Source: Nanobdellota archaeon
GTDB taxonomy: Archaea > Nanobdellota > Nanobdellia > Parvarchaeales > Parvarchaeaceae
Assembly (NCBI GenBank): GCA_021794235.1
Contig: JAJYRE010000006.1
Location: 1-35,060, forward strand
Length of the DNA stretch: 35,060 nucleotides
Direction of reading: 5' to 3'
Position 1 is the stretch's first letter, and every line of letters begins with the position of its first letter. The notes beneath the pieces are model-generated. The model did not search any database, was not told the origin of the DNA, and was given only the letters and a program-made list of their open reading frames with translations. The translations under genes and the position numbers were made by a program. Below are positions 2,354 to 28,634 of this stretch, in pieces.

Positions 2354-3787
2354 TCAGGATTTAAGTCCTTTTTTGTAGACTTGTACCTCATCACCGAGAA
2401 AATCCAGTATTATGAAGCTTTTGTCCCTCAGATTCACTATAGGAACCTTTGCTATGTCAGGATCCATGCCGTATTTCTTCTGGTAGGCTGTTTGGTACTG
2501 CCAGCATGATGAGTTTATGAGTATGGTTCCTTTGTACTTTGATGCTAGCGTCTTGTGTATGTGCCCTGTGGCATATATGTCGGGTGTTTCGTCTATAACC
2601 AGATAATCCCTTGGCAGAGGGAGAACCTGCGTTGAGCCGTGTGTGGGGGCGAGATGCCTGGATTTCAGATGAATCTTCATTATAGCCTCTATATCCTCCG
2701 GGTTCATCTTGCTGTATTTTGTTATAGTGTCCGCATAGTAAGGTATACTGAATCCGTGATACGAAAGCAAACTAGTCTTGTTTCCGTTAACGACTAGGTT
2801 GACCATATAGGGGTTTGAGAGAAAAACAGCATTCGGCAGCTGATAAAGAGATGCGGCAAACTTGGGATTGAGCCTGGGCTGCGGCTCCGCTATGTGTGTT
2901 GCATCGTGATTTCCCTGGGAGAGGAGTATTTTTATCCGCTTCGGTATGCGTTCAATTACCCTGAAGAAGGCGTCGTACTGCTCTTCTAGGCTCTTTATAT
3001 CGAGTTCTTTCTCCTGGTCCGGATACACTCCGATGCCGTCGACTAAGTCTCCGCTTATAACTATGAATTTTATCTGCTTCGAGATGCTGGAGTATTCATC
3101 TATCTCGCCGTTCAGCCATTTTATGAAGCGCTCCATCGCGTCGTGTGCGAAAAGCTTTGAGCCGATGTGGACATCCGACATGAACAGCGCGTAGGTGTCG
3201 TCTATTTCCGCAGGTCTTTCACTCTTGATCTGTATGTCGGGGTAGATTACCTCCTTGACGAATATTGAATCCTTGTACTTCCTGCCCTTTATTATTACCA
3301 CTTGATCTGACAGGACCTCCTGATCGCTATTCGGTATTATTGCCCTGTAGCTCTCTGTATTATCCTCGATATCCATTACAGTATATTTTTTAATAGGGCT
3401 TATCGAAACGGATGAAATCATGGCTATGGTCTTGACATCTGTTCCGGACGGCGACTTCTTTACGTTTGCCAGCGATACGACTCCGGCACCGTCCTTGTTC
3501 ACCAGTATTGTCTTTAAGCGATTGAATCTGTCGTTGAAATATTCGACCCAGTCAAGCGACTTTGACTGCGATACTTCACCGTCGTAGTCCTTTAGGACCT
3601 CTACACCGTAGTTCTCGTATGTCGATGTACCGTACAGGTCATGCAGTTCATTTGTCCCGAGAAAAGTTATTCCGCGCTCCTTCAATCTTTTTATAAGATC
3701 GTCCAGATCCGTTATCTTCACGTCCTTTACGGATGAGTCTACAAGTATCCCGTTTGTGAATAGAATATTTAGTTGGGATTCATCCAT
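2354..3787 (-). CDS. polB: DNA polymerase D small subunit DP1 (exonuclease/phosphoesterase subunit)
   Basis: OB-fold region followed by calcineurin-like motifs LFMSDVHIGS, ISGDLVDGIG, LSQGNHDATH, YHGFSIPYYAD, YATGHIHKT; characteristic of archaeal DP1. Confidence 0.93.
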   Translation of the reverse strand: MDESQLNILFTNGILVDSSVKDVKITDLDDLIKRLKERGITFLGTNELHDLYGTSTYENYGVEVLKDYDGEVSQSKSLDWVEYFNDRFNRLKTILVNKDGAGVVSLANVKKSPSGTDVKTIAMISSVSISPIKKYTVMDIEDNTESYRAIIPNSDQEVLSDQVVIIKGRKYKDSIFVKEVIYPDIQIKSERPAEIDDTYALFMSDVHIGSKLFAHDAMERFIKWLNGEIDEYSSISKQIKFIVISGDLVDGIGVYPDQEKELDIKSLEEQYDAFFRVIERIPKRIKILLSQGNHDATHIAEPQPRLNPKFAASLYQLPNAVFLSNPYMVNLVVNGNKTSLLSYHGFSIPYYADTITKYSKMNPEDIEAIMKIHLKSRHLAPTHGSTQVLPLPRDYLVIDETPDIYATGHIHKTLASKYKGTILINSSCWQYQTAYQKKYGMDPDIAKVPIVNLRDKSFIILDFLGDEVQVYKKGLKS

Positions 3788-3828
3788 ATGCCTATATAGA
3801 TAAGCTACGAACTATAAATCATTTGCGC

Positions 3829-4131
3829 CTATGCGAACGAGGATTCTGAGAAACCGGACTCTATCAGCATCGCCTTGGCCTTGTCAACATGCTCTCCCTG
3901 GAGCTCTATAATACTATCTTTATAAGTTCCGCCGCATGCTATCTTAGTTTTTAGCTTCTTTGTAAGACCCTTTATGTCGGTAGTCTTCTGGTCTATCCCA
4001 GAGATTACAGTCACCATTTTCCTATAGGACACCTTTTTGGTATAAACCCTGATCTTTTGACCTTCCTGAGAAATGGTACCGCAAATACAAAGCGCTTTCG
4101 GCAAACCGCAAACTGGACAAACTTCTGTCAT
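3829..4131 (-). CDS. Translation initiation factor aIF1/SUI1 family protein
   Basis: N-terminal CPVCGLPKALCIC zinc motif plus SUI1 core (VTVISGID...LTKKLKTKIACGGTYKDSIIELQGEHVDKAKAML). Confidence 0.92.
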   Translation of the reverse strand: MTEVCPVCGLPKALCICGTISQEGQKIRVYTKKVSYRKMVTVISGIDQKTTDIKGLTKKLKTKIACGGTYKDSIIELQGEHVDKAKAMLIESGFSESSFA

Positions 4132-4204
4132 TTTCTGTCTTTAAACACCCACGTATAATTAATACCTAATATTGACTTAAGAGGTATATAAGCTTTTCCA
4201 AAGC

Positions 4205-5689
4205 TCATGCTTTCGCATCGACCTTGCCGAACAGATTCTCTCCTCTTTTAGGTGTACCGGTAAACCTGTCGAAATTCACACTATCTAGGCCCTGTGGCTC
4301 TATGCCCAGCTGGGAGAATATTTTATCGGCCGTATCAGGCATGAACGGCTGCAGCAGTATCGCTATCACCCTGATGGACTCCAGTGCATTGTACAGTGCA
4401 TTGTTGAGTTCCTCGCCCTTGAGTTCCCAGGGTTTCTTGTCATTGACGTATTTGTTTACCCGGCGTATGAATGCCCATAGCTCGTTTACCGCACCGTACA
4501 GATCAAATGTATCTATGTCCTCCTTTATCTTTTTTAGGTTTAGATGGGAGCTGAGTTCGTCTTTTCCGTCTATACCTGAGGGATCTACCTTTCCGGCTAT
4601 TGTCAATACCCTGGCAACGAGGTTTGAAAGATCCGCCATCAGCTCGCCGTTTATTCTCGCGACAAGCGATTTTTCTGAAAAATTGGTATCCTTCCAGGTC
4701 GGGTTCTCGGCTACAAGGAAATATCTCAGCGCATCCCTGGAGTATCTGTCTATCAATCCGATGGGGTCAACAACGTTGCCGAGTGACTTGCTCATTTTCT
4801 GCCCTTCCACAACAACATAATCGTGCACAAATATTTTCTCTGGCAGCTTTAATCCGGCTGATATCAGCATCGCCGGCCAGTAAACGGCGTGGAATCTTAT
4901 TATTCCCTTGCCTATTATATGGATATCCGCCGGCCACCATTTATCGAACTGTTCCTGGTCCCTTCCGAACCCTACCCCTGTCAGATAGACTCCGAGAGCA
5001 TCGAACCACACATATATTTTCTGCGAAGGGTCATTAGGCACCGGCACTCCCCAGTCCTTGGCTCTTGCAGATGATCGTGAAATACTGAAATCCTCCAGCC
5101 CCCTCCTCACGAACGAAAGCACCTCGTTCTTCCTGGATTCGGGATAGATGGCGAGTTCGTTGCTTTCTATCAGCTCCATAAGCTTTTGCTGGTACCTCGA
5201 AAGTGCGAAAAAGTAATTTTCCTCCTCGACCAACTCCGGTCTTGTCAGATGCTCCGGGCATTTGCCGTCGACTAATTCGTCTTCCGTGTAGAACGCCTCG
5301 CACCCCACACAGTAGAGTCCCTTATACTTTTTCTTGTATATGTCGCCGTTGGCTGCACACGCATTCCACAGCTTTTCTATCCCCGGCCAATGAAAATCCT
5401 TGTCGGATGAACGGACGAACTGTGAGAATGAAAGTCCTATTTTCTCCGCTAGCTGCTTGAACAGTTCGGAGTTCTGTCTGCAGAGATCCTCCGTGCTTAT
5501 TCCAAGCTTTTCTGCCGCCTGCACATTCTTAAGGCTGTTTTCATCCGCTCCGGTGGTAAGAAACACTTCCCTGCCGGAAATCCTCTTGTATCTAGCGATA
5601 ACATCGGCCTGTACAAACTCTAGAGTGTGGCCAAGGTGCGGTTTTGAATTCACGTATGGTATGGCTGTGGTTATGTAAAATTTTTCCAT
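4205..5689 (-). CDS. metG: Methionyl-tRNA synthetase, bacterial-like short form
   Basis: TAIPYVNSKPHLGHTLEF (HIGH), GQKMSKSLGNVVDP (KMSKS), CVGCEAFYTEDELVDGKCPEH knuckle and VEEENYFFALSRYQ. Confidence 0.95.
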   Translation of the reverse strand: MEKFYITTAIPYVNSKPHLGHTLEFVQADVIARYKRISGREVFLTTGADENSLKNVQAAEKLGISTEDLCRQNSELFKQLAEKIGLSFSQFVRSSDKDFHWPGIEKLWNACAANGDIYKKKYKGLYCVGCEAFYTEDELVDGKCPEHLTRPELVEEENYFFALSRYQQKLMELIESNELAIYPESRKNEVLSFVRRGLEDFSISRSSARAKDWGVPVPNDPSQKIYVWFDALGVYLTGVGFGRDQEQFDKWWPADIHIIGKGIIRFHAVYWPAMLISAGLKLPEKIFVHDYVVVEGQKMSKSLGNVVDPIGLIDRYSRDALRYFLVAENPTWKDTNFSEKSLVARINGELMADLSNLVARVLTIAGKVDPSGIDGKDELSSHLNLKKIKEDIDTFDLYGAVNELWAFIRRVNKYVNDKKPWELKGEELNNALYNALESIRVIAILLQPFMPDTADKIFSQLGIEPQGLDSVNFDRFTGTPKRGENLFGKVDAKA

Positions 5690-5696
5690 ATTATTT

Positions 5697-5772
5697 TAGC
5701 GGGGACGGGATTTGAACCACGTGACCTTTGGGTTATGAGCCCAACGAGCACTCCTGACTGCTCCACCCCGCT
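5697..5772 (-). tRNA. Initiator tRNA-Met (CAU)
   Basis: Minus strand AGCGGGGTGGAGCAGTCAGGAGTGCTCGTTGGGCTCATAACCCAAAGGTCACGTGGTTCAAATCCCGTCCCCGCTA: 7-bp acceptor with A1:T72, GGG/CCC anticodon stem (initiator hallmarks), anticodon CAT; no encoded CCA. T-stem contains an extra nucleotide. Confidence 0.92.
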
Positions 5773-5872
5773 ATTGCAGATTATTAATTTCTTAATACTA
5801 TATTGGCTTAAGTAGTTTTCCTTGAAAAAGGCTTAATCGCTTAAATAGTTTGAATTCTAACTTATTAGTGAT

Positions 5873-6508
5873 ATGAGCGTTGTCATCTCACTCGGCGGGT
5901 CTTTCATGTTTGACAGGCCTGCGGAAGTCAAGAAAATACGCACCATTCTATCCGGATTAAACGAGCGGGCGGTCGTCATAACCGGCGGCGGGAAGATTGC
6001 AAGAGATTACATAGCACTGGGAAAAATATTCGGACTGAAAGAGAGCGACCTTCACCAGATCGGGATATATTCGACCAGGATAAACGCATACATAATATCC
6101 AGGATACTCGGGGGGAACTTCTCAGAGGAGAACCCGCAGAAACTGGAGCCAAAATCAAAGATAACCCTGATGGGGGGGTACAAACCGGGGTGGACTACGG
6201 ACACGTGCACGGCTTACGCGGCGGTTTCCACAAAGGCAAAGGTGATATTCAACCTATCAAAAGAAAAAGGGGTTTATACGAAAGACCCTAAACTCCCTGG
6301 AGCAGAATTCATAAAAACGCTCGAGTTCCGGGACCTGTACAGCTTTACGAAGGGTGAGAGAAAGCCCGGTATGAATTTTATATTCGATCCGCAGGCCGCA
6401 AAGATATGCCAGAAGCACGGCATAGAAGTTGTTGTTACAAAGGACGTTGCAGATATAGGCAGGTACATCAGAGGAGTGGATATATCGGGAACTCTGATAA
6501 AGAACTAG
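5873..6508 (+). CDS. pyrH: UMP kinase (archaeal PyrH)
   Basis: MSVVISLGGSFMF..., VVITGGGKIARDYI, TLMGGYKPGWTTDT: amino-acid-kinase fold, archaeal UMPK type. Confidence 0.9.
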   Translation: MSVVISLGGSFMFDRPAEVKKIRTILSGLNERAVVITGGGKIARDYIALGKIFGLKESDLHQIGIYSTRINAYIISRILGGNFSEENPQKLEPKSKITLMGGYKPGWTTDTCTAYAAVSTKAKVIFNLSKEKGVYTKDPKLPGAEFIKTLEFRDLYSFTKGERKPGMNFIFDPQAAKICQKHGIEVVVTKDVADIGRYIRGVDISGTLIKN

Positions 6509-6537
6509 GCGTATAATTCTCGGCCCTAATAGAACAC

Positions 6538-6555
6538 TATACTATATATAGTATA
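6538..6555. promoter_or_regulatory. 18-bp perfect palindrome covering the probable TATA region of topA
   Basis: TATACTATATATAGTATA is self-complementary; centred about 25 bp upstream of the topA ATG at 6572. Confidence 0.55.
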
Positions 6556-6571
6556 AAATCAATTTCTATAA

Positions 6572-8653
6572 ATGCAGCTGATAATAGCAGAGAAGAGCAC
6601 AGCGGCAGAAACTATCGCTAAGAACCTGGGAGAATCAAGATTAAAGACCCAGGAGTTCGGACCTGTCAAAGTATGGTTCACTAAAATAAACGGCGAAGAG
6701 TCTGTAGTTGTCCCTCTTAAAGGTCACATAAAGGAAGTGGTCTACCCAGACACATTCAAGAAATGGAATGAAGAAACGCTTCTAAAAATGGTCGACTCAA
6801 AGCTGAATTATGTACCTCTGGCTCCTGAAAATATAGAAGTCATAAACAAATTCTCCGGAAAGGCGGATAAGGTGATAATAGCGACAGACTATGACACCGA
6901 AGGGGAGTCTATAGGCTTCGAAGCCATAGATGTGGTCAAGGAGAAAAACAAAAAGGCCAAGATATACAGAAGCGTCTTCTCATCATTAACACAAAAAGAG
7001 CTGATGGAGGCGTTCAAAAATCTGCAGAAGCCGAACAAGAACCTCTCGGACAGCGCGGATGCGAGAAGGGAGATAGACCTCATACTGGGTGCGGTTCTAA
7101 CCAGATTCATATCGTTGTCCGCAAAAAGACTCGGAAATTCCTTCCTGTCCATTGGGAGGGTCCAGACGCCAACGCTGACGCTGATAGTCGACAGAGACGC
7201 CGAGAGGAGGGCGTTCAAGCCGGAGAAGTACTCCAGGTTTCTTGCGACCCTCGAAAGCGCCGGTACCGCCTTCGTAGCTGAACACAGCGAAGGAAAGATA
7301 TTCGATTCTGACATCATAGACAGAGTAAGAAAACTGAAAAACACTACGAAAGGAACTGTAGATTCCGTAACTAAAAAAGTCAGACAGGTCACGCCGCCGA
7401 AGCCGTTCAATACTACGGACTTTTTGAGGAGCGCGGCCGCAATAGGATTCAGCGTACCTAACGCGATGAGGATAGTCCAGGGGCTTTACATGAAAGGTTA
7501 CGTTTCTTACCCGCGTACCGACAGCGAAGCATATCCTCCGACACTCAATCTTAAGGAGATACTGCAGGAGCTTTCAAAATCCAATTCGTACAAGAAACAC
7601 GTCGACGAGATAATAAAATCTGGAGAGCTCCACCCTACAAAGGGTAAAGAAGCGAAGGATCACCCACCCATCCATCCGGTAAAGGTACCCGACGTAAAGC
7701 TTTCCACACAGGAGGCTAGAATATTTGACCTGATAACCAGAAGATTCCTGGCTACGCTTTCAAAAGAGTCCAAGGAGGAAGTCATATCCGTAAAAATAAA
7801 CGTGAAGGGGGAGATTTTCGTGGCTAAGGGCTCGAAGGTAATAAACCCTGGCTGGAGAAGCGTCTACACATACTCAAAATACGAGGAAAACATCCTTCCC
7901 GAGATTACGGAGAAGGCTAAGCTAAACATAAAGTCGATAAACGAGATTGAGGACCAGACGAATCCCCCTCCACACTATTCCCAGGGAGGCATACTTAAGG
8001 CGATGGAGGATCTCAACCTGGGTACGAAGGCTACAAGACCCGAGATGCTGAAAAAACTGATGGAGAGAAGATACATATCCGCCAGCAAGACGCTTATACC
8101 GAGTGAGGTAGCGTTCGCGGTCATAGAGAACCTGAAGAAGATATCAAAGGATCTTACGGGCCCGGGTCTGACTGCGCTCCTTGAAGCAGAGATGAAAAGG
8201 ATAGAGGCGGGGGAAAAGAGCAAGGATGACGTTGTCAACGAATCGAGAGAGCTTGTTAAGGATATACTTAACGACCTTCTGAAGAAGAAGAGCACGATAA
8301 AAGAGCTGATGCACGAGGCTCTCCTGAAACAGTACGTTTTCGGCAAGTGCCCGAGAAGCGGAGGGGATCTTAAGATGATAATATCAAAGAAAACCCACAA
8401 GAGATTCGTAGGCTGCGCTGACTATCCAAAGTGCCATTTCGGAATGCCGTTGCCGCAGTCCGGTTACATGTTCATATCCCCACAGACTTGTCCGAAGTGC
8501 GGAATCCATATGGTGGAATGGAGGGGTAAGGAAAGCAAGAGAACCTACATATTCTGCGTCAATCCGAGCTGCCAGAAAGAAAAGAAAGAGGCAAAGGAAG
8601 CAAAAGAGGCGGCAGCCGGTAAAAAGAAGAAAACTGCTAAAAGCAAAGAATAG
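6572..8653 (+). CDS. topA: DNA topoisomerase I (type IA)
   Basis: Toprim start MQLIIAEKSTAAETIAKNLG, ATDYDTEGESIGFEA, RVQTPTLTLIVDRDAERRAF, GYVSYPRTDSEAYP active site, C-terminal zinc motifs (CPRSGG...CADYPKC, CPKCG...CVNPSC) and Lys-rich tail. Confidence 0.96.
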   Translation: MQLIIAEKSTAAETIAKNLGESRLKTQEFGPVKVWFTKINGEESVVVPLKGHIKEVVYPDTFKKWNEETLLKMVDSKLNYVPLAPENIEVINKFSGKADKVIIATDYDTEGESIGFEAIDVVKEKNKKAKIYRSVFSSLTQKELMEAFKNLQKPNKNLSDSADARREIDLILGAVLTRFISLSAKRLGNSFLSIGRVQTPTLTLIVDRDAERRAFKPEKYSRFLATLESAGTAFVAEHSEGKIFDSDIIDRVRKLKNTTKGTVDSVTKKVRQVTPPKPFNTTDFLRSAAAIGFSVPNAMRIVQGLYMKGYVSYPRTDSEAYPPTLNLKEILQELSKSNSYKKHVDEIIKSGELHPTKGKEAKDHPPIHPVKVPDVKLSTQEARIFDLITRRFLATLSKESKEEVISVKINVKGEIFVAKGSKVINPGWRSVYTYSKYEENILPEITEKAKLNIKSINEIEDQTNPPPHYSQGGILKAMEDLNLGTKATRPEMLKKLMERRYISASKTLIPSEVAFAVIENLKKISKDLTGPGLTALLEAEMKRIEAGEKSKDDVVNESRELVKDILNDLLKKKSTIKELMHEALLKQYVFGKCPRSGGDLKMIISKKTHKRFVGCADYPKCHFGMPLPQSGYMFISPQTCPKCGIHMVEWRGKESKRTYIFCVNPSCQKEKKEAKEAKEAAAGKKKKTAKSKE

Positions 8654-8666
8654 AAAAATAAAAACA

Positions 8667-8697
8667 GTGCGCTACGTAAAAATTACGTAAGCGACAC
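8667..8697. terminator. Stem-loop between convergent topA and EF-1A genes
   Basis: GTGCGCTACGTAA-AAA-TTACGTAAGCGACAC: arms pair with two 1-nt bulges, followed by a TTTT run on the + strand. Confidence 0.45.
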
Positions 8698-8711
8698 TTT
8701 TCTGTCTAAGT

Positions 8712-9983
8712 TTAAGTCTTAGCTACTAAGTCTATGCATCTTCCGGCCGCGATTGTAAGACCCATGTCCCTGATTGCAAATCCTGCAAGCTGGGGGATTG
8801 TGTCTGCCTTCTCTATCGAAAGCGGCTTAAGAGGCTCCAGCACGACTATAGCTGCGTCACCCTGCTTTATTGTTGCCGGGTTTTCTTCTGCTGTAGCACC
8901 TGTCTTAGGGTCAAGCCTTCTAAGTATTTTCTTGAACCTTACAGGCACCTGTGCCGTGTGTACGTGAAGTACCGGGCTGTATCCTGCGGATATTGCCGTA
9001 GGGTGGTTAAGTACTATTATCTGTGCTGTAAACTCAGTTACTACCGTAGGTGGCGCTGAAACAAGGCCTGCTACGTCTCCTCTCTTTATCTGCTCCTTTT
9101 CAACACCTCTTACGTTGAAGCCGATGTTGTCTCCAGGACCAGCCTGATCAAGAGTCTGGTAGTGCATCTGCACGGACTTTACTTCAGCCTGAACATGCGA
9201 AGGCTCGAAAGTTATCTTGTCTCCCGGCTTTATTATTCCGCTGACTACCTTTCCGACAGGCACTGTTCCTACTCCCTGAATGGAGTATACATCCTCTATC
9301 GGGATTCTAAGAGGTAAAGTTGTAGGTCTCTCTGGTAGAGGAAGTGCGTTAAGTGCTTCCAAAAGAGTAGGGCCTGTGTACCAAGGCATCTTTTCGCTCT
9401 TCTTAGCGAGGTTAAGTCCGTCCTTTGAGGAGATTGGTATGTAGTGAAGCTGCTCTGCGTTGGAATACGAAGCCTTTACAACCTTCATTACGTCCTCTTT
9501 GACCGCCTTGTATTTGGCCTCGTCGAAGTTAAGGAGGTCCATCTTGTTAAGTGCTATTATTACGTTCTTTATACCGAACACTCTCGAAAGGTATATGTGC
9601 TCCCTAGTCTGCTGCATTACACCCTCTTTTGCGTCTACTACAAGAACTGCCGCGTCGGCTTCCGATGCACCGGTAATCATATTCTTTATGAAGTCTACGT
9701 GTCCAGGTGCGTCGATTATTGTAAATTCGTACTTCTCTGTTGTGAACTTCTTGTGGCTAAGGTCGATTGTTACACCCTTCTTCCTTTCCTCACCGGAGGT
9801 ATCAAGGAAGTAAGCGAACTCAAATTCTACCTTTCCTAAAGTCTCAATTTCCTTCTGTATCTTTGCCTTATCCTGCTCGCTGAAGTTTCCGGTCTCGAAC
9901 AGCAATCTTCCGACTGTCGTTGACTTACCGGAGTCTACGTGCCCTATGAAGATAAGATTCATGTGTGGTTTTCCTTCTGTCAT
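8712..9983 (-). CDS. tuf: Translation elongation factor 1-alpha (EF-1A)
   Basis: MNLIFIGHVDSGKSTTVGRLL, DAPGHVDFIKNMITGASEADAAVLVVDA, NKMD; full-length 423 aa; AAAAAGGTGATT Shine-Dalgarno-like motif upstream. Confidence 0.98.
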   Translation of the reverse strand: MTEGKPHMNLIFIGHVDSGKSTTVGRLLFETGNFSEQDKAKIQKEIETLGKVEFEFAYFLDTSGEERKKGVTIDLSHKKFTTEKYEFTIIDAPGHVDFIKNMITGASEADAAVLVVDAKEGVMQQTREHIYLSRVFGIKNVIIALNKMDLLNFDEAKYKAVKEDVMKVVKASYSNAEQLHYIPISSKDGLNLAKKSEKMPWYTGPTLLEALNALPLPERPTTLPLRIPIEDVYSIQGVGTVPVGKVVSGIIKPGDKITFEPSHVQAEVKSVQMHYQTLDQAGPGDNIGFNVRGVEKEQIKRGDVAGLVSAPPTVVTEFTAQIIVLNHPTAISAGYSPVLHVHTAQVPVRFKKILRRLDPKTGATAEENPATIKQGDAAIVVLEPLKPLSIEKADTIPQLAGFAIRDMGLTIAAGRCIDLVAKT

Positions 9984-10007
9984 ATTCTAATCACCTTTTT
10001 AAAATAT

Positions 10008-10027
10008 TCGATTTTTATCGATTTTTA
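10008..10027. repeat. Tandem duplication 2 x TCGATTTTTA in the EF-1A upstream region
   Basis: TCGATTTTTATCGATTTTTA read directly. Confidence 0.6.
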
Positions 10028-10090
10028 ATATACTATAGAGAAACATTTATTATTTAAATCTTTTGTTTAGAAATTTTCGAGGTAAAACAA

Positions 10091-10195
10091 ATGAAACGAC
10101 GGGTTAAATACGGCGCGAATCAGGGTCGCACGTTTTTTATGGTACTAAACTGCCGTTTACTGCGGCCTATTATAATTAAGCTTGTTACTGCATAA
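10091..10195 (+). CDS. Candidate small ORF, 34-aa basic peptide
   Basis: ATG at 10091 to TAA at 10193: MKRRVKYGANQGRTFFMVLNCRLLRPIIIKLVTA; GAGGT Shine-Dalgarno-like motif about 7 nt upstream; locally GC-richer patch in an AT-rich intergenic gap. Confidence 0.3.
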   Translation: MKRRVKYGANQGRTFFMVLNCRLLRPIIIKLVTA

Positions 10196-10306
10196 AAGTC
10201 GATATAAGAAGCGGTTTCCTGTCATTATTATAATTCTAAAAAGAAATTCTATCAAAAGCATAATAAGCGTATATAAGTGAGAAATTTATTAAAATTAAAT
10301 AAAGAA

Positions 10307-10867
10307 ATGGAAAAGAAAGTAAACTACAACAAACGTTTCATATCGTTCATTCTGGCGATGCTGTCAGGCATCACCGCCATAGCCAGCGCTGTAGCCGCAC
10401 TTGTTATAAACTGGGGTATATTGGTGTCCAATACCGGCACGTTATCTAGCAACATCTACAATTCATTGCTCAACGTATACGGATATCTTAACGTGACGGT
10501 AAACACGTCCCAGGTCCTGCAATACGCCCAAAACCTTGCAACCGTAGAATCTTACCTGCAGCAGGGTCTTTTCGTGTTCATACCTCTTATGATAATAGCA
10601 GGAGCATTCATGATAGTGTCCGCAATGTTCATAAAATCGAAGAACAAGGAGAGGGAGAGGATGGGAACAATATATACCGTGATATTCTCCATTCTGACGC
10701 TGATAGGATTCATGGTATACCTAGTCTTAAACCCGACAGCGTTCATAGCACTGTTCAGCTACCTTGGCAGTGGGGGATCAACTGCGTATCTTGTATACGG
10801 CCTATTCATGAGCTACATAATACTCGGTGTATTATCGACTATAGTTAAACTTACAGACAAGGAATAG
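10307..10867 (+). CDS. Hypothetical multi-pass membrane protein
   Basis: Four hydrophobic segments. The track's GTG start (10277) lies in a TATATAAG promoter-like motif, so ATG 10307 (MEKKVNYNKRF) is preferred. Confidence 0.7.
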   Translation: MEKKVNYNKRFISFILAMLSGITAIASAVAALVINWGILVSNTGTLSSNIYNSLLNVYGYLNVTVNTSQVLQYAQNLATVESYLQQGLFVFIPLMIIAGAFMIVSAMFIKSKNKERERMGTIYTVIFSILTLIGFMVYLVLNPTAFIALFSYLGSGGSTAYLVYGLFMSYIILGVLSTIVKLTDKE

Positions 10868-10903
10868 GTAGATATTTATTTCTTAAATGCTAGGAGAATA
10901 TTC

Positions 10904-11992
10904 ATGAACGTTTCAAAGATAATGACAAGGAAGGTCCTTTGTGCTGATGCAAACCTGCCTATAGACAAAGTAATAGAGCTGATGGATTCCAAGAACGTAA
11001 AGGAACTCCCTGTACTGCAGAAAAAGAAGTACGTTGGACTGCTGACATACTATGATGTTATCTCCGTTGATGCTATGCGCGCCAAGAAGGCGATAGACCT
11101 TGCAAAGAAGGTTCCTGTCATATACCAGCGTGATTCCATAGACAAGACGATACAGCTGATGCAGAGCACGGGTGTAGGCGCACTGCCTGTGGTGGATGAG
11201 GACAAGAAGCTGATAGGTATAGTATCGGACTATGATGTCCTTAAACTGCTGATAAACAGCAGAGTATTCGATTCCATAAAGGTGGAGGACCTGGTTATAA
11301 AGAGATTTCCGATACTCAGAACTGAGGATACCATCGGAAGGGCACAGAACCTGGCAGCGATAAACAAGATAGACAGTCTGCCTATAATAGACAACTTCGG
11401 AAAACTCGTCGGGGAAGTTATGATAGCCGACATATTCAACTATATGTTCAATAAGAGGCTTACAAGCACAAACAAGGGCAAGAAGGATCCCGACAAGAAG
11501 GATTACTCCTACAATGAAGTTAATGTAATGGAAGTAGCCAGGAAGGAGCTCCCTAAGATATACCTGAATCTAAACCTCAGAAAGGCCCTGGAGATGATGC
11601 TAACAGCGAAGGTTAAGGGTACGACGGTCATAGACAACGATAACAGGCCCGTCGGTATACTGAGCAGGCTGAAGATACTAGACCTTCTTGCAGCCAAGAA
11701 TATAGGGGACAGTATAGATATAGAAGTTTCGGGAGATTACGACTGGGACTTCATAATAATGATAAGAACCCTGATAAACAGGAAGGAATCCATACTCTAC
11801 AACGCCGGCGGTATCAATAAGATAAAGATACACATCAAAAAGATACGAGACGTCACTGGCAAATACCAGATGAACATGACTGCGTTCGGAAAGAAAAGAT
11901 ACAATCTTAAGGTCGATGGAGTGATAAAGGAAGTGCTCTTCCAGGAGCTTATCGACAAGTTAGAGAACGGAATAGAACATCTTAGGGACTGA
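10904..11992 (+). CDS. Multi-CBS-domain protein
   Basis: Four repeats of CBS pattern (MNVSKIMTRKVLCADANLPIDKVIELM...KELPVL; VGALPVVDEDKKLIGIVSDYDVL; IDSLPIIDNFGKLVGEVMIADIF; GTTVIDNDNRPVGILSRLKIL). Confidence 0.88.
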   Translation: MNVSKIMTRKVLCADANLPIDKVIELMDSKNVKELPVLQKKKYVGLLTYYDVISVDAMRAKKAIDLAKKVPVIYQRDSIDKTIQLMQSTGVGALPVVDEDKKLIGIVSDYDVLKLLINSRVFDSIKVEDLVIKRFPILRTEDTIGRAQNLAAINKIDSLPIIDNFGKLVGEVMIADIFNYMFNKRLTSTNKGKKDPDKKDYSYNEVNVMEVARKELPKIYLNLNLRKALEMMLTAKVKGTTVIDNDNRPVGILSRLKILDLLAAKNIGDSIDIEVSGDYDWDFIIMIRTLINRKESILYNAGGINKIKIHIKKIRDVTGKYQMNMTAFGKKRYNLKVDGVIKEVLFQELIDKLENGIEHLRD

Positions 11993-14900
11993 TCAGAACG
12001 CAAGAAGAGAAGTCTGTTTTTCCTGCTGCTTTTCTCCAAATACGCTGTCCAGAGTTATCTTTATCAGCTCAAGTTCGTTCTTTAGGTACTTTGGTATATC
12101 GTAGTTGTTGGCTATCTCCAGAGAAACTTTGAGGTATTTTTTAACGTTGCCTTCACTGGATGTAAGGACCAGATTCCCGCCGCATTTCCTGCACTTGCCG
12201 AGAAGCGGGGCCCGCTTGTACCTCTCGTTGCATTTTACGCACCTGAACTCTTCCGTTCCGAACCTCCTGAGGTTTCCCTTAATGTCCTTTATAAAATGCT
12301 TCTCTATGATTATCCTTGCGGTGTCGGCTAGATCCACCGCCCTTATCATTTTCTGGAGCTTCATCTGGGATGTCACCTTGTCCATCATAGTCTCCAGCGT
12401 CTTGTATGATGAAACATTTACTCCATAGTTTATGTTTTCGGTGTCGTGGGTGAAGTAAATTGTCGCGTCCGGATCCTTGAGTATGGACTTAACCTGCTTG
12501 ATTTTAACGTCGGAAGGCTTTGGATAGTTGAGTGTAGCCTCATAGAATTCCTTTGGGTATTTGTCCACTATATCCAGATTGTAGGCCTCCGCATCTATGC
12601 TGTTGATGTCTAGTACCGTAGAGATAACAAGCGGGGAATCCATATACCTCGCTCCTCTGGTATCCGGCAGGAGTTCTCTATCAAAGTTCAGAAGCATGTC
12701 CGTAAGAAGTAGGAGTGCAGCTTCGTCTCCATCGCAGTTTCTTCTCATAGCCGCGTGGAAGAACGGATGCGCAAATAGCCCCTGTGTCTTTGAGAATCCG
12801 ATTATCCTCCCTACCGTACCGGAAGAGGTGTGCGGAGCGAGGCCGACGACAAGCTTTCCTATAAGATCCTGTTTGGAATTTACATTCATTATTTTTTCCC
12901 TCTTGTAGTATCTGACCATCAAATCGTCTATAAACTGAGAAACCCTGAAGAATACCTCGGATGCGTTCTCATTCTGGTCGCCGTAGGTAGGTAGTATTAT
13001 ATCCTGCGGCCTGAGCTGGAGTATCTGCTCATTGCTTGTTAACTCTTTTCCGTATACATCCTTATCGTAGCCGAGTTCTTTTAGCTTATCTATTCCGACT
13101 TCTATCTCCTTCGGTTTAAAATGCGTTATCGGCACTTCTATCGCATCAAAACGCACTGTACCGTCCTTGTTAACGTTTAGTTTGTACTGGGACCTGAGTA
13201 TCCCTTTTTCAAGCGGTTCTATGTCCCCTGAAGAATTGAATACTCCCTTGACTCCTTTTATCATTGCAGGCCTTTCCTTTATTCCCAGGTTCAGGAATGC
13301 CCTGTCAAGATACTCCTTAAGGTTTATCCTGACCTTTGATTTCTTAAGGGTCGGCTTCCCGTGATGCACTAGCTCGTTCGTCTTTGCCATACACACCCTG
13401 CAGTAGTACATGCGCCTTGTCGGATTTCCGCACACTTCGCACTTCTGGTATATGGAGTCCCTCTTGCAGTTATCGCAGACTAACATTCCGTAATCGGCCG
13501 TTATAAACACCTTATCCGCCGCATTTATTATATTCCTTGAAGGTCCGCCGCCGTCTGCTATAGGGAAGATAACATTCGGGTTTGTATCCATCTCACGCAT
13601 CTTCGCTTTTTCCGGCCTACCGAGCCTACCGCCGATAAAAGTCCCTGCGGAATCCATTATCCGGAGTCCGCTTAGCTCGCTGAGCACATCCAGGTTTGAT
13701 TTGCCTTCCTTAAACTTCAGGACTGCTTCATCAAAGTTCAGCTTGCCGTATCCCAGCGTATACAGTAAAGAATCCGCGTTATCCACAATTATATCCTCGA
13801 TAACGTAATGCTCTGCACCGAGTAGCTCTAAAGTCCTCTTCGCACCGCTGTCATACTTCAGTCTAAGAACTTTGTGCTCCTTGCCTGAAATAGATGTCTG
13901 AATCTCCACCTTTGCGTGGGTGTAGATATATTCTAAAAGATAGCGTAGCTGGCTCTGGGATACCTGGGACCAGAAGTACAGGAACCTCGGATGCAGTGGC
14001 ACAGAATATTTTGAAGAAATTTCGAGGTAATCCTCGAAGCTGATTGCGTTCTTAGAGGCAGAGACCGCATCGTCTCCGATACTCTCAACTATCCTGTCCC
14101 ACCACTCATCAACAAATGGGGATGGCATTAACAGATGCCCCTGTTCTGAGAAGTCGCCATAACTAAACAGCACGTCACCTAGGTATAGTATCTCGGATAT
14201 CTTATCAAGAACGAGGTTAGCCTCCTCCATCGTATTGATTTTCTTTACTCTTCCGTCCTTCAGCTTAACTGTTGGTCCGTCTACGGTTGAGCAGGGGGTT
14301 ACGGCGCACGCCTTACCTGGAAGCTCTACCCTGAGCTGTGAGCCCGTGGCTATAAAGTCCAATAGTATCTTGTTTGTTGCGGGATTGACAGATGCAGCGG
14401 CCAAGCCTGAAACCCTGCTCCTGCCGTATCTCAGCCTGAATCCGCCGCTGGTAAGCGGATAGGAAAATACGGGTCTGCCGGCTGCGAGCTCCTCCAGATA
14501 TCTGTAATTTGGAAGTACCTTCATTGTCTCATCGGTCTTCTGGCTGGATTCCGCATGAGCCAATTCCTTTATCTTAAGATATTCGTTTAGAAACTTAAAA
14601 TCGTCTGTTATCTTATAACCATCTGAGATATTTTTGAGAGTCTTGTTTACTTTTGCCGCTTTCTGGGAAAAACCCTCGCACATCACAAGACACACCCCTC
14701 CTCTGATCTTATTGGTTTTTATCCTTGGCAGGTTCTTATAGGCTGAAACTTCCCTATCAGAAGTAGGGTCTCCTTCTATCTCTATTGGTATATTGTGCAT
14801 AATGAAGTCCAGTTCAGGGCCGCTGGGCATATACTGGAGCCTTGCCTCATAGTCATTATAATCTGTTACTTCCACTTTTATCCTGCTTATCTCCTGTTCA

Positions 14901-15415
14901 TCGGGATCATATTTTCCAAGATCGAATGCGGCTCTGAGAGTATCGGCTATTACAACAACCGATGCCGCTGCCGTACCGCCCGCTCCTCTTATCGGCCCGC
15001 CAAAATAACAGGCAAGATAGTCATTACCGTCTCTTCTTTTCTTCAGCTCTAGTCCGACAAAACCCTCCAGCGGCGCTGACACGATTGCAGAAGTTATGTA
15101 AGCAAGACCTACTCTTATTCCCATCTCCAGGGCGTCGTGAAGGTTTTCAAACTGTATGAATTTTGATTGTGCGGTTGCTACGGCACTGTCAAGAGCAACT
15201 CTCCAGTCATTCGGCGAATACTTGCTCTCTGCCTGCCTTATGAAATCCGCTAGACCGCTGTTTAGAAGTTTCGGGTTCAGTACGGATAAAAGACCCTCTA
15301 TCCTGGAAGCTATGTCTGCCGCTATCGGAACCTTTACCTCCTTGAATTTTTCTACCAGTTCGTATTGATGTGAGACTTCTGCAGAAATACCTCTGGTATA
15401 AGAATTATCGACCAT
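11993..15415 (-). CDS. polC: DNA polymerase D large subunit DP2
   Basis: 1140 aa; GGPIRGAGGTAAA, LVGLAPHTSSGTVGRIIGFSKTQGLFAHPFFHAAMRRNCDGDEAALLLL, zinc motifs CDNCKRDSIYQKCEVCG and CVKCNERYKRAPLLGKCRKCGG. No intein. Confidence 0.97.
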   Translation of the reverse strand: MVDNSYTRGISAEVSHQYELVEKFKEVKVPIAADIASRIEGLLSVLNPKLLNSGLADFIRQAESKYSPNDWRVALDSAVATAQSKFIQFENLHDALEMGIRVGLAYITSAIVSAPLEGFVGLELKKRRDGNDYLACYFGGPIRGAGGTAAASVVVIADTLRAAFDLGKYDPDEQEISRIKVEVTDYNDYEARLQYMPSGPELDFIMHNIPIEIEGDPTSDREVSAYKNLPRIKTNKIRGGVCLVMCEGFSQKAAKVNKTLKNISDGYKITDDFKFLNEYLKIKELAHAESSQKTDETMKVLPNYRYLEELAAGRPVFSYPLTSGGFRLRYGRSRVSGLAAASVNPATNKILLDFIATGSQLRVELPGKACAVTPCSTVDGPTVKLKDGRVKKINTMEEANLVLDKISEILYLGDVLFSYGDFSEQGHLLMPSPFVDEWWDRIVESIGDDAVSASKNAISFEDYLEISSKYSVPLHPRFLYFWSQVSQSQLRYLLEYIYTHAKVEIQTSISGKEHKVLRLKYDSGAKRTLELLGAEHYVIEDIIVDNADSLLYTLGYGKLNFDEAVLKFKEGKSNLDVLSELSGLRIMDSAGTFIGGRLGRPEKAKMREMDTNPNVIFPIADGGGPSRNIINAADKVFITADYGMLVCDNCKRDSIYQKCEVCGNPTRRMYYCRVCMAKTNELVHHGKPTLKKSKVRINLKEYLDRAFLNLGIKERPAMIKGVKGVFNSSGDIEPLEKGILRSQYKLNVNKDGTVRFDAIEVPITHFKPKEIEVGIDKLKELGYDKDVYGKELTSNEQILQLRPQDIILPTYGDQNENASEVFFRVSQFIDDLMVRYYKREKIMNVNSKQDLIGKLVVGLAPHTSSGTVGRIIGFSKTQGLFAHPFFHAAMRRNCDGDEAALLLLTDMLLNFDRELLPDTRGARYMDSPLVISTVLDINSIDAEAYNLDIVDKYPKEFYEATLNYPKPSDVKIKQVKSILKDPDATIYFTHDTENINYGVNVSSYKTLETMMDKVTSQMKLQKMIRAVDLADTARIIIEKHFIKDIKGNLRRFGTEEFRCVKCNERYKRAPLLGKCRKCGGNLVLTSSEGNVKKYLKVSLEIANNYDIPKYLKNELELIKITLDSVFGEKQQEKQTSLLAF

Positions 15416-22681: not shown

Positions 22682-22755
22682 ATCTGGTTTAAAAAGTAAA
22701 AAGAAGTAGTAATAGATGTGATTGAATTTTCACATTTATCATAGGGGGTGGATTT

Positions 22756-24984
22756 ATGGGAAACAAGCTTGACGAAGTTCTAGAAGAGAAAACAAATTCT
22801 GTTGCATCTGAAATTCAGACTGATGCATCTGGACAAAATAAGTCCGGAAGACCTAAACTGAGATTATACCTGCTTTCTGAATTGGAGCTGGGAACTAAAT
22901 TGAGCGACCCCGAAGTACTTGCTAATGTAGGCGAGCTGATAAAGAATGATACTAAGCACATAGACGGAGTAGTCATAAACGGACTTATGGCGTACGTACC
23001 GGACAGATACAGCAGATGGAGGGGCGAGAGGCTCGACCTTATGGAAGACCACCTTCTCGAGAGATACGGACAGACTATATATGACCAGGTGAAGAGGGGA
23101 AAGAACGAGAGCAATTCCGTTGACGATCTTGTGGAGGCTACAAGATTAGGAAGGATAATGATGAGCCCGATAGTACAGCAGGCAAAGAAGAAGAACATAG
23201 ATATACACTGCATCGCGGGAAACACGGATTATAGAAATGTAAGAATGCTTATAGAGAGCCTTGAAAAACTTAACAAACGCAACATCTACAATGAAAACAA
23301 CAAGAACAATTCGAAAAAGAGGGGAAAGAATCTTAACACCTCTACGGATGAAGTAGAGAGGGTCCTATCATTCATACCGGACGGATATAAGTTCAAGGCG
23401 TCCAAATGGAAGAGCTCGGACAAAGATGGTATAAAGAACAAGGCAAACGAGATCTACCACAACATAATCGAAAACATTTTCAGGAACCAGAATGTACACG
23501 TATACAAGAGGTTCGAGAACTACGCTGGAGAAGACACCGGCGTAAAGCCGGAGGAGATAACGATAAACGGGCTGAAGGTCAAGGTATTCAATTCCATAAA
23601 CGGCCTTACCGTCGGACTCAATGAGGGTAAACCTAGCGACAGGATCCTTAAGATGGCGATCGAATACGCAAATATGGACGCCATGAGAGGCAGGCTAGGC
23701 GATGTTTACTTAACAGGAAACGGATCGGCAACGGAGTTTACAGCAGTGAATTACCAGAGCAGGGAAGACCCTGTTTTCATGTTTAATCAGGGTCCTCTGC
23801 TAGACATAGACAAACAGCTGAGGCTCAGGGCGAGCTTCAACAAGACGAGCGTCGCAAAGAGGCTGTCGCAGATCCAGGACAGCGGAGTTTCCATACTAAC
23901 TATAAACGAGGACGGCAGCCTAGAGATAGAGCACCTTGACATAACTGCACTCAGAAAGAAAATAAATCCGAGCAAACTGGAGAAGACTCTGTCAAAGGGT
24001 TCCATGTATGAGATGACACAGATATCCGACTGGCATGTAGGAAACGCAAAGGGCGACTACGAAGCAATGGAGAAGGTGCCTGACATTATGACGGGAAGCA
24101 TCGTACCGAGAAATTACAGATCACTTTTCGACGGCGGTGACATGCTTGACGGAGGAAACGACAAGGCACAGAGGACTGATATGTCCCTGCCGATAACTCC
24201 GACACCTGAAGAGATAAACTCAGAGCTGGAAAAGCTAAAGGATGAAAAGGACTACGTAACTCGCATAGAGAAATTCAAGGGTATAATGTCAAAGGCGCTA
24301 TACGGATACTCTGACATAGACTTGGGAAGACAGATGGACAGACTGGGAACTTACCTAAAGCCAATAGCAAAACAGGTTTCAAAGGTCTATGCGGTGGAGG
24401 GCAACCACGTCAAGAAGGCTACCGGAAACGGCAGCGAGAGCAGGCTAAAGAAATCGCTTTATCTTGACAACGGAGTGGAAGAAGTAATACTTCCGGATGA
24501 ACTCGAGGATGTAGAACAGAACCCTATGCTCGGCAGCTACAGCATGCTTATGTATCACAGCCCTGGATACAGGGGCGGTATAGATGCGAGAACCGCGCTG
24601 ATGTACATCGCTAGGGACACCGGACAGGACAACGTTGATGTTATAATGGCGGGCGACTGCCACGAGCCCGGAATAAATTACGGATTGAAATGGCATGGCT
24701 TCGGCGGTGATTACGTTAACGGCGAAGACAAGAAGGGAGAATGGAGGACAAGGATGGCTATGACAATCTCATCGCTGGAGAAGCGCACAAAGTTCGAAAA
24801 GAGCATAATCCACAAGATAGATTATACGAAGGGGATAAGCCAGCTTTACCTTCCTACAGATGACAGCATAGGCACGTCGTACAGCAGGTACAAATTTATA
24901 CCCGCACAGACGATACACGGCGAGATAAACGCCGCGGGCGGTTCCAGACTGCACAGGGCTTTGGATAGCATACTTTACAAGTGA
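22756..24984 (+). CDS. Uncharacterised 742-aa protein: putative tandem calcineurin-like metallophosphoesterase (degenerate N module, largely intact C module)
   Basis: C module: MTQISDWHVGN, LFDGGDMLDGGN, VYAVEGNHVKK, LMYHSPGY, DVIMAGDCHEPG. N module at equivalent places: LYLLSELELG, GVVINGLMAYV, IHCIAGNTDYRN, DVYLTGNGSATEF. Strong AGGGGGTGG Shine-Dalgarno-like motif before ATG. Confidence 0.8.
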   Translation: MGNKLDEVLEEKTNSVASEIQTDASGQNKSGRPKLRLYLLSELELGTKLSDPEVLANVGELIKNDTKHIDGVVINGLMAYVPDRYSRWRGERLDLMEDHLLERYGQTIYDQVKRGKNESNSVDDLVEATRLGRIMMSPIVQQAKKKNIDIHCIAGNTDYRNVRMLIESLEKLNKRNIYNENNKNNSKKRGKNLNTSTDEVERVLSFIPDGYKFKASKWKSSDKDGIKNKANEIYHNIIENIFRNQNVHVYKRFENYAGEDTGVKPEEITINGLKVKVFNSINGLTVGLNEGKPSDRILKMAIEYANMDAMRGRLGDVYLTGNGSATEFTAVNYQSREDPVFMFNQGPLLDIDKQLRLRASFNKTSVAKRLSQIQDSGVSILTINEDGSLEIEHLDITALRKKINPSKLEKTLSKGSMYEMTQISDWHVGNAKGDYEAMEKVPDIMTGSIVPRNYRSLFDGGDMLDGGNDKAQRTDMSLPITPTPEEINSELEKLKDEKDYVTRIEKFKGIMSKALYGYSDIDLGRQMDRLGTYLKPIAKQVSKVYAVEGNHVKKATGNGSESRLKKSLYLDNGVEEVILPDELEDVEQNPMLGSYSMLMYHSPGYRGGIDARTALMYIARDTGQDNVDVIMAGDCHEPGINYGLKWHGFGGDYVNGEDKKGEWRTRMAMTISSLEKRTKFEKSIIHKIDYTKGISQLYLPTDDSIGTSYSRYKFIPAQTIHGEINAAGGSRLHRALDSILYK

Positions 24985-25029: not shown

Positions 25030-26088
25030 ATGAACGAAGAAGAAGCCGTGGATAGGATTATAGATTTCGCACGGAAGAACGACAACTTCACAGTCTTATA
25101 CCACCTGGATACGGACGGCATAGTCAGCGCAGCACTTCTCACTAAGGCCCTTGAAAAGCTTGGAAAGAAAGTTGTTGCTTACCGGCCGAGCAACTACGAG
25201 GATTTCGATACTATGGACCTGTCGGAGTATACAGATGATATATTCATATGCGATATGCAGCTCAGGGAGAAGTATTTCGGAATGTTTGGCGGGAAGAGGC
25301 TGTGCCTGATAGACCACCACGAACTTATTGACCCGGACGGCTTTGTCTACATAAATCCAAAGATGTGGGGCGACACTACATATACGCCTGCTTCTTTTCT
25401 TGTATACAGGATATTCAGGATGTTCATAGAAAAGTATGATTGGCTTTCCGCGGTCGGCTTGGTCGGGGACTCGGGAGGAAAGGAAAATTCTGAATTTGTT
25501 AAAAAGACAGCGGAACGCTACGACGTAAAACTCGGAAAGGACGAATACATGTATGATAACTCGTTCGGGGATGCCGCCAGCATGGTGGGGGCTATGACGA
25601 ACGTTTACGGAAGAAGCGGCGCTGAAGAAGCGCTTGGTATAGCGATAATGTGCGAATCGCTCGCAAGCCTGCTATCGAATAATACTCTGGTAACGGTAAA
25701 CAACATAGTCAATGATGAGTTGAGAAAGCTAAACGAAGAGTTCGAGGCTAAGAAGGAGAAGTACGGAATAATATACTTCTTCGAGATGGATCCGAAGTAC
25801 AAAAGGTACGGTTCTACGTTGGTGACGACTCTGAGCTTCAGGCCCGACTACTACGGGAACATACTCGTCTTTATGACGAAGATAAACCACAAGCTCATGA
25901 GGCTAAATATAAGGGCGAACGGGGTCGAAATAAGACTGCCGGACGTCCTAAGGGAGATATTCAAGAAAATAAAGGGGGAAGGAGGGGGTCACAACAAGGC
26001 ATCCGGAGGGTCTATAAACCTCAAAGACAGGGAAGAATTCAAAAAGCTCTTTATACTTGAAGTAAACAAACAGCTGGAGTCCTCTTAG
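25030..26088 (+). CDS. DHH-family phosphoesterase (RecJ-like)
   Basis: YHLDTDGIVSAAL, IFICDMQL, CLIDHHEL and C-terminal DHHA1 signature GEGGGHNKASGGSI. Confidence 0.9.
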   Translation: MNEEEAVDRIIDFARKNDNFTVLYHLDTDGIVSAALLTKALEKLGKKVVAYRPSNYEDFDTMDLSEYTDDIFICDMQLREKYFGMFGGKRLCLIDHHELIDPDGFVYINPKMWGDTTYTPASFLVYRIFRMFIEKYDWLSAVGLVGDSGGKENSEFVKKTAERYDVKLGKDEYMYDNSFGDAASMVGAMTNVYGRSGAEEALGIAIMCESLASLLSNNTLVTVNNIVNDELRKLNEEFEAKKEKYGIIYFFEMDPKYKRYGSTLVTTLSFRPDYYGNILVFMTKINHKLMRLNIRANGVEIRLPDVLREIFKKIKGEGGGHNKASGGSINLKDREEFKKLFILEVNKQLESS

Positions 26089-27461: not shown

Positions 27462-27890
27462 ATGCAGGATGGACAGGACTGGAGGGATTTCGAGAACGCG
27501 GTCGGGGACATATTCGACGAATTCGGGTATAGGACTGAAAGGAACGTAAATTTCAAGACAGCCAGAAGGTTCCAGATAGACCTTATCGCCTACGACAGGA
27601 TGAGGGCGTTCTTTGTCGACTGCAAGGACCATTTTTACATCAGCCCATCAAAGGAGGAGGAGTTTATAATACAGCAGAATGCCAGGATGCTAAACTACGT
27701 GAAGCAGAACGGGGAATTCGCAGGGAAAAGGAATATATCCCTGCTGGTTACCAGATACAGGACAAATTCGCTCATGGAGCACACAGAGGGAATCGGGAAG
27801 ATACTTGCGGTGGATATAAACAGCCTGCCGGAGCTTCTTAGCAACCTGCACCTGTACGAGAGCGAACTCCTGTCTATGAAGGATATCTGA
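27462..27890 (+). CDS. Putative PD-(D/E)XK-fold nuclease (restriction-endonuclease-like)
   Basis: GYRTERNVNFKTARRFQIDLIAYDRMRAFFVDCKDH: D...(V)DCK arrangement typical of the PD-(D/E)XK core, with an N-terminal helix WRDFENAVGDIFDEFGY. Confidence 0.65.
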   Translation: MQDGQDWRDFENAVGDIFDEFGYRTERNVNFKTARRFQIDLIAYDRMRAFFVDCKDHFYISPSKEEEFIIQQNARMLNYVKQNGEFAGKRNISLLVTRYRTNSLMEHTEGIGKILAVDINSLPELLSNLHLYESELLSMKDI

Positions 27891-28634
27891 TTACTCCAGT
27901 CTGTTTGCCAGTATAAACGACAGAACCGCATCCTTGTTTATCAGTTCGTATTCCACTTTAAGCGGATAGTTGTTTGACAGCATTACCTTTATAGGCCTGT
28001 CCGGATCGGCGACGTTGAGGAACTTTGAAAGGTATTCTATCGAGTATTTCGCCCTCGTCATTCCCTCGGACTTTACGTTAAGGAGCTCCTTGTTCTCATT
28101 CATCGATATCTCCTGCGAGAATTCCTTCTCCTCGCTCCTCGAACTTAGCATAAGGCGCATTCCGTCCACTGTAAAGTAAATAGAATCGTCCACGAGGCTG
28201 GCCGCCTTTATGGATTCCTTCAGAGCAGAACTCACCAGCATGGCTTCGGCTGTGAAATTCAGCTGCGGCACCTTCTGTGCGGTGTAATTCTCATCTATCA
28301 GGGGGATCGTGAAATGGAGCCTGGATTTTCCCCTTATGTCTATCTCCAATCTGTTCTTTGAATCCTTGAATTTGGCCTTGTCCTCCTTCTTCATCATCTT
28401 TAGTATGCTGTTAAGGTCGTCTAGCGAAACCGACAGTTTTATCTCCTTGTCGACGTTGAAAGTGGAGAATATGTTCTTGTTTCCCTCGAAAAGGACCATA
28501 GCTATGTTTGCAGGGTCCATCGCCTTTATCGTGAATCCGTCCTGGTTAAAGTCGAGCGATACGTCGGACATCAGGCTACCTATCGTGTCCATCATTCTCT
28601 TAAAAAACTCGATATCCTTGAACTCAACTTCCAT
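27891..28634 (-). CDS. pcn: DNA polymerase sliding clamp (PCNA)
   Basis: VSLDFNQDGFTIKAMDPANIAMVLFEG, YSIEYLSKFLNVAD, PLKVEYELINKDAVLSFILANRLE. Confidence 0.95.
   Translation of the reverse strand: MEVEFKDIEFFKRMMDTIGSLMSDVSLDFNQDGFTIKAMDPANIAMVLFEGNKNIFSTFNVDKEIKLSVSLDDLNSILKMMKKEDKAKFKDSKNRLEIDIRGKSRLHFTIPLIDENYTAQKVPQLNFTAEAMLVSSALKESIKAASLVDDSIYFTVDGMRLMLSSRSEEKEFSQEISMNENKELLNVKSEGMTRAKYSIEYLSKFLNVADPDRPIKVMLSNNYPLKVEYELINKDAVLSFILANRLE

Follow-up and report, generated by a model that had tools for sequence, protein, structure and literature searches.

A tandem metallophosphoesterase of Parvarchaeota with a ligand-depleted and a ligand-complete module: a predicted dead/live enzyme pair with a DP1-like C module

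Introduction

The metallophosphoesterase (MPE) fold is the fold of Mre11 and of the proofreading and scaffold subunits of polymerases. Mre11 (SbcD) functions as a pair of MPE domains. In DP1, the proofreading subunit of the archaeal polymerase PolD, the metal ligands and the proton donor are provided by D360, H362, D404, N450, H451, H497, H560, and H562 (PMC10721889). The B-subunits of eukaryotic polymerases are DP1-related, dead MPEs, which serve as scaffolds (PMC4996933, PMC10721889).

Here, we describe a tandem MPE, TMPE, encoded by a tiny acid-mine archaeon, in which two modules of MPE fold follow each other in one chain. The N-terminal module has lost its ligands, the C-terminal module is DP1-like and has retained them, and this dead/live order is conserved among the homologues. 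By its anatomy TMPE resembles a phosphodiesterase of the DP1/Mre11 class, and it is a member of neither family. It apparently represents a conserved family of dead/live tandem MPEs that is so far undescribed.

The gene and its start site

The window, i.e., the whole stretch of DNA analyzed here (35,060 nucleotides), is the 35 kb contig carrying TMPE from a genome of 0.71 Mb that is 78% complete. The features at the locus are:

22744..22752, plus strand: Shine-Dalgarno-like, G-rich leader GGGGGTGGA, immediately 5' of the ATG; similar leaders in almost all relatives
22756..24984, plus strand: TMPE, 742 aa, open frame; homologues in 29 of 55 relatives
25030..26088, plus strand: DHH/DHHA1 (RecJ-type) gene, directly downstream of TMPE, candidate functional partner

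The 742 codons form a genuine open frame, no long competing frame was found on the reverse strand of 22756-24984, and every motif that the earlier note had quoted from the two successive sets was recovered from the translation. The same note had drawn attention to a strong Shine-Dalgarno-like motif, which is indeed present, and as a G-rich leader is kept before the start of almost all family members, the start site of TMPE is supported. The GC and GC3 contents of TMPE equal those of the adjacent genes, and viral relatives were found neither in IMG/VR (two queries) nor among 50,697 phage records; on these grounds a phage or mobile origin was rejected. The contig also carries genes for PolD DP1 and DP2, a topoisomerase, EF-1 alpha, and a PCNA-like protein (2354-15415, 27462-28634), with a small NERD/Mrr-like nuclease candidate at 27462-27890 adjoining PCNA.

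Predicted fold of both halves

An AlphaFold2 model of full-length TMPE, run with an alignment of 22 rows, reached a pLDDT of 78 and a pTM of 0.84 and displays the MPE order of elements twice. The strands of the N-terminal half (35-41, 71-75, 149-153, 273-278, 317-320, 326-331, 340-344, 377-383, and 389-395) have their counterparts in the C-terminal half (417-423, 455-459, 543-546, 595-600, 629-632, 639-647, 662-670, 693-700, and 709-716), and the matching succession of strands and helices bears out the claim that the frame of the fold persists in the N-terminal module. Modelled separately, the N-terminal half reached a pTM of 0.77, and the best 28 matches of this half in a Foldseek search against the PDB were all of MPE fold. 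They are led by YydB, DP1, and the Pol delta/zeta subunits and followed by LpxH, SMPDL3, Mre11, and Rv0805, with moderate TM-scores to single entries (0.2-0.56). A fold other than MPE had been named as the outcome that would speak against the two-module view; the separate model and its matches predict an MPE fold for the N-terminal half. The whole model finds PolD DP1 first and furthermore SMPDL3, acid sphingomyelinase, the Pol delta holoenzyme, and Mre11, a ranking that among MPEs does not separate nucleases from other phosphodiesterases.

The N-terminal module has lost its metal site

The features of the N-terminal module, with the motifs placed by the family alignment of 19 sequences, are:

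22846..23967, plus strand: N module, residues 31-404, predicted MPE fold without metal site (AlphaFold alone, Foldseek)
22876..22893, plus strand: motif I, SELELG; Asp replaced by E42, His by E44
22975..22992, plus strand: motif II, INGLMA region, residues 74-79; G76 in place of the bridging Asp, in 19/19
23218..23238, plus strand: motif III, GNTDYRN; neither the Asn nor the catalytic His conserved in the family, DY nearly invariant
23281..23331, plus strand: Asn/Lys-rich insert NIYNENNKNNSKKRGKN, residues 176-192, low pLDDT
23587..23604, plus strand: motif IV region; N279 in TMPE, His in 13/19 relatives
23701..23733, plus strand: motif V, DVYLTGNGSAT; S324 where the second His would stand

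The positions equivalent to the ligands are thus occupied by E42, E44, G76, N156, T157, N279, N322, and S324, and with E42, E44, G76, the non-conserved residues 156/157, and S324 the module lacks the metal-ligand motifs. G76 is invariant, and the remaining ligand-equivalent positions are variable or hold residues that are no ligands. As the ligands are missing, the N module is probably unable to form a binuclear center in the way known MPEs do. The proposal that each of the metal-binding motifs is lost applies to the bridging Asp and to nearly all other positions, but not throughout to motif IV, given the His in 13 of the 19 relatives; likewise, the Asn of GNTD, which had been read as a lost GNH, is kept, albeit just in TMPE and two relatives. 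The basic Asn/Lys-rich insert is real, although modelled with low confidence. No Pfam or NCBIfam model matched the N module.

The C-terminal module keeps the complete ligand set

For the C-terminal module, the corresponding features are:

23968..24981, plus strand: C module, residues 405-742, MPE with full ligands, DP1-like (19-sequence alignment, hhalign)
24025..24042, plus strand: motif I, SDWHVG (D425, H427), both 19/19
24133..24156, plus strand: motif II, GGDMLDGG (D462), Asp in all 19 family members, mostly Glu in distant homologues
24400..24408, plus strand: motif III, GNH (N550, H551), 19/19
24556..24558, plus strand: motif IV, H601, 19/19
24652..24663, plus strand: motif V, GDCH (D634, H636), GDxH for GHxH, 19/19; GHxH in some distant homologues

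The eight residues are identical in all 19 homologues, which reach down to about 24% identity, so that the expectation of a module keeping most calcineurin-like ligands, with GDCH for GHxH, holds at every position. The module has the five motifs of the superfamily (DxH, GD, GNH, H, and [GH/GD]xH in this order), the first His of motif V being replaced by Asp, and its ligands map in order onto those of DP1, D634 being an Asp where DP1 has H560. As to the PF00149/PF12850 superfamily, TMPE itself scores below the curated cut-off of PF00149 (E 0.011), whereas eight relatives exceed it over the C module.

Internal duplication or fusion

A profile-profile alignment pairs the two halves at motifs I (SELELG/SDWHVG), II (NGLMA/GDMLDGG), and V (GDVYLTGNGSATEF/VDVIMAGDCHEPG), in agreement with the pairing made independently by eye. 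With profiles of the wider family, the four N-C pairings score 26.8-34.9, which is weak but colinear from end to end, and in each of the four the score exceeds all 100 of 100 block-shuffled controls (best shuffles 22.6-25.1). Profiles built from the 19 family sequences alone gave no significant N-C match; the sequence evidence therefore needs the wider family, and it is backed by structure prediction.

The earlier note had concluded that an internal duplication turned one module into a pseudo-enzyme. The second part is borne out by the dead/live state of 19 members and about 20 distant homologues; for the first part, duplication is favored by the profile comparisons and a fusion of distinct MPE domains is its rival. 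Such a fusion of two already diverged domains would be consistent with the weakness of the N-C similarity (best 18%, P 0.001) and with insertions that differ between the halves. However, the N module is closer to its own C module (32-35) than to DP1 (26-28), Mre11 (19-25), or the short MPE (14-19), which is why an internal duplication is favored, and the predicted order of elements matches throughout both halves. We regard a fusion origin as rather unlikely.

Distribution of the family

Almost every genome of the genus encodes a homologue of TMPE, as a rule in a single copy; the two matches in genome G003 are fragments at contig ends. The homologue of genome G018 (L010/L037), near L037:8490, is split by a single in-frame TAG, reflecting either a sequencing error or a pseudogene. 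A search of the genome contigs with the TMPE sequence alone returned no match, whereas the profile of the family alignment did find homologues, which are scattered over roughly twelve further families of the class. The two-module architecture is thus present beyond Parvarchaeota: the distant homologues, mostly of 830-1143 aa and one of 706 aa, correspond to the Parvarchaeota family in both modules (N-N and C-C each 99.5% by hhalign, E about 1e-22), and the dead/live order is retained in them (706-1143 aa, about 20 compared). In most of them the N module reads GE(L/M)GxGTK, GG, and GEED..N-like, with the ligands lost throughout, and, apart from a few exceptions, the C modules retain DxH, GNH, H, and either DxH or HxH. 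In the C modules of loci L103-L124, the bridging Asp of motif II is mostly replaced by Glu while the other ligands are kept, an unusual metal site for an MPE.

Distant homologues hold 147-256 residues between N motifs III and IV as compared to about 106 in TMPE, at the site matching the insert of residues 176-192. This long insert gives weak SMC-type matches and may resemble a coiled coil, and an N-terminal extension present in many distant homologues may, judged by weak matches, resemble a winged helix.

In line with the initial impression that no named family has this architecture, no model in Pfam or NCBIfam describes it, the distant homologues scanned gave no above-threshold match, and PHROGs returned nothing beyond weak matches to TMPE. 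A Pfam match to PF15447 (PfEMP1 segment) and a PDB match to dishevelled were taken as chance.

Gene neighborhood

The RecJ-type DHH gene downstream of TMPE has intact DHH and GGGH motifs and follows on the same strand with a gap of 19-74 nt in 24 of the 25 loci that hold both genes. The position of TMPE beside serS and the DHH gene, which had been remarked upon in this window, recurs across Parvarchaeota, in nearly all of which the DHH gene comes next after TMPE, amid replication, translation, and nuclease genes. As the block from serS via TMPE and DHH to PCNA is conserved as a whole, the adjacency of TMPE and DHH argues only weakly for a joint function, and we rejected it as a strong functional proof. 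At L027:4646-6928, minus strand, TMPE alone is inverted between serS and DHH, both of which keep their orientation; a promoter shared with DHH is thus not essential there. Among distant homologues with enough flanking sequence, no DHH neighbor was found. The TMPE homologue of another family adjoins a LigD 3'-phosphoesterase gene in six genomes. In family f5, a stand-alone LigD 3'-phosphoesterase flanks the long homologue on one side (L098:6765-7130, minus strand; L101:3720-4100, minus strand; also L109, L110, L114, L116, and L117), and a ribosomal protein S2-like gene lies near.

Relation to DP1, B-subunits, and Mre11

Compared at matched depth by hhalign, the family C module resembles DP1 (96.7%, E 3e-10, score 80; best shuffled control 40) far more closely than Mre11 (8%) or the short MPE (20%), the profiles of the C module and DP1, like those of the Mre11 and short-MPE controls, being drawn mostly from one genus. 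The wide-family C profile alone gave no significant match to DP1. The likeness comprises the MPE fold with the same order of motifs, the best profile match among the MPEs compared, the top Foldseek match of the whole TMPE model, and a Q..T element after motif V common to both. However, TMPE differs from DP1 in that no OB domain was found and a dead MPE module stands in its place, in front of the live one, and in that motif V reads GDxH instead of GHxH. PF04042 (DNA_pol_E_B) does not match TMPE, and its sole match in the genome is a separate, normal DP1 at 2354-3787 on the minus strand. For these reasons TMPE is not DP1 proper.

With the B-subunits TMPE shares an inactivated MPE fold, retained there as a scaffold, and B-subunits are among the structural matches of the N module; they consist, however, of a single MPE and an OB domain, while in TMPE a dead and a live MPE are joined within a single chain. 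The likeness to Mre11 lies in the MPE nuclease fold and in the pairing of MPE domains, which in TMPE is covalent and asymmetric. The weak profile match and a genuine Mre11-Rad50 gene pair elsewhere in the genus led us to reject TMPE as Mre11. The pair was seen in G016, the one genome inspected; the Rad50 of this pair carries a CxxC hook that falls under the Pfam threshold, so that a negative zinc-hook scan was a false negative; a role of TMPE as a stand-in for a missing Mre11-Rad50 was likewise discarded. NurA had no match in 27 genomes of the genus, in which the controls did match.

Proposed function and alternative explanations

We give about even credence to the reading that TMPE is a divalent-metal-dependent, DP1-related phosphodiesterase, likely a DNA/RNA 3'-end nuclease, and that it forms a predicted live/dead pair within one molecule. 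The C module would hold a two-metal center and would cleave phosphodiesters by a two-metal mechanism, while the N module would be a fixed structural platform that docks the substrate or a partner and replaces the second protomer or the scaffold, a role for which the eukaryotic B-subunit offers a precedent (PMC4996933). A basic loop in TMPE, or the long helical insert in other lineages, would project from this platform and may grip nucleic acid or the partner. We infer the enzymatic activity, the platform role, and a possible cooperation with the RecJ-type nuclease from these features; a nucleic acid is the best guess for the substrate, a guess in which the DHH and LigD neighbors are set against the synteny of the block, the inversion at L027, and the distant loci without DHH. 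The Glu at C motif II of most distant homologues counts against the nuclease reading and may temper it.

MPEs of this type act on a wide range of substrates, and with SMPDL3A/B, acid sphingomyelinase, LpxH, and Rv0805 among the structural matches, TMPE could alternatively be a phosphodiesterase or phosphatase other than a nuclease, acting on cyclic nucleotides, dinucleotide second messengers, nucleotides, or lipid head groups through the same two-metal site of the C module; the dead module would then be a lid that confers specificity. We consider this unlikely, since the closest profile match is DP1 and the adjacent genes serve replication, translation, and nuclease functions; the charged insert, moreover, would be more in keeping with a polyanion than with a small molecule.

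The nuclease reading can be extended to the proposal that TMPE is a lineage-specific derivative of the proofreading subunit of PolD, whose catalytic domain was duplicated and inactivated in one copy within the chain, an independent DPANN parallel to the inactivation of the B-subunits, and that it works as a replication/repair nuclease together with the RecJ/Cdc45-type DHH protein; in this full form we regard it as distinctly improbable. That both modules are mainly structural and form a replication/repair scaffold with a weakly active C site is very unlikely: the B-subunits are dead, DP1-related MPEs used in this way (PMC4996933, PMC10721889) and Glu is frequent at C motif II of distant homologues, but within the Parvarchaeota family none of the C ligands varies, a constancy that a pure scaffold would not require.

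Significance

Asymmetric pairs of a dead and a live enzyme in a single chain are natural experiments on the support that an active enzyme receives from its pseudo-enzyme twin. The arrangement found in TMPE occurs in many families of the class and has been kept in almost every Parvarchaeota genome examined, although these genomes are smaller than 1 Mb. The most informative new fact is the affinity of the C module for DP1. If it is true, it would provide a name for a conserved gene that is now unannotated in the libraries, and TMPE would represent a third fate of a DP1-type domain, besides proofreading in archaea and the inactive scaffold in eukaryotes.
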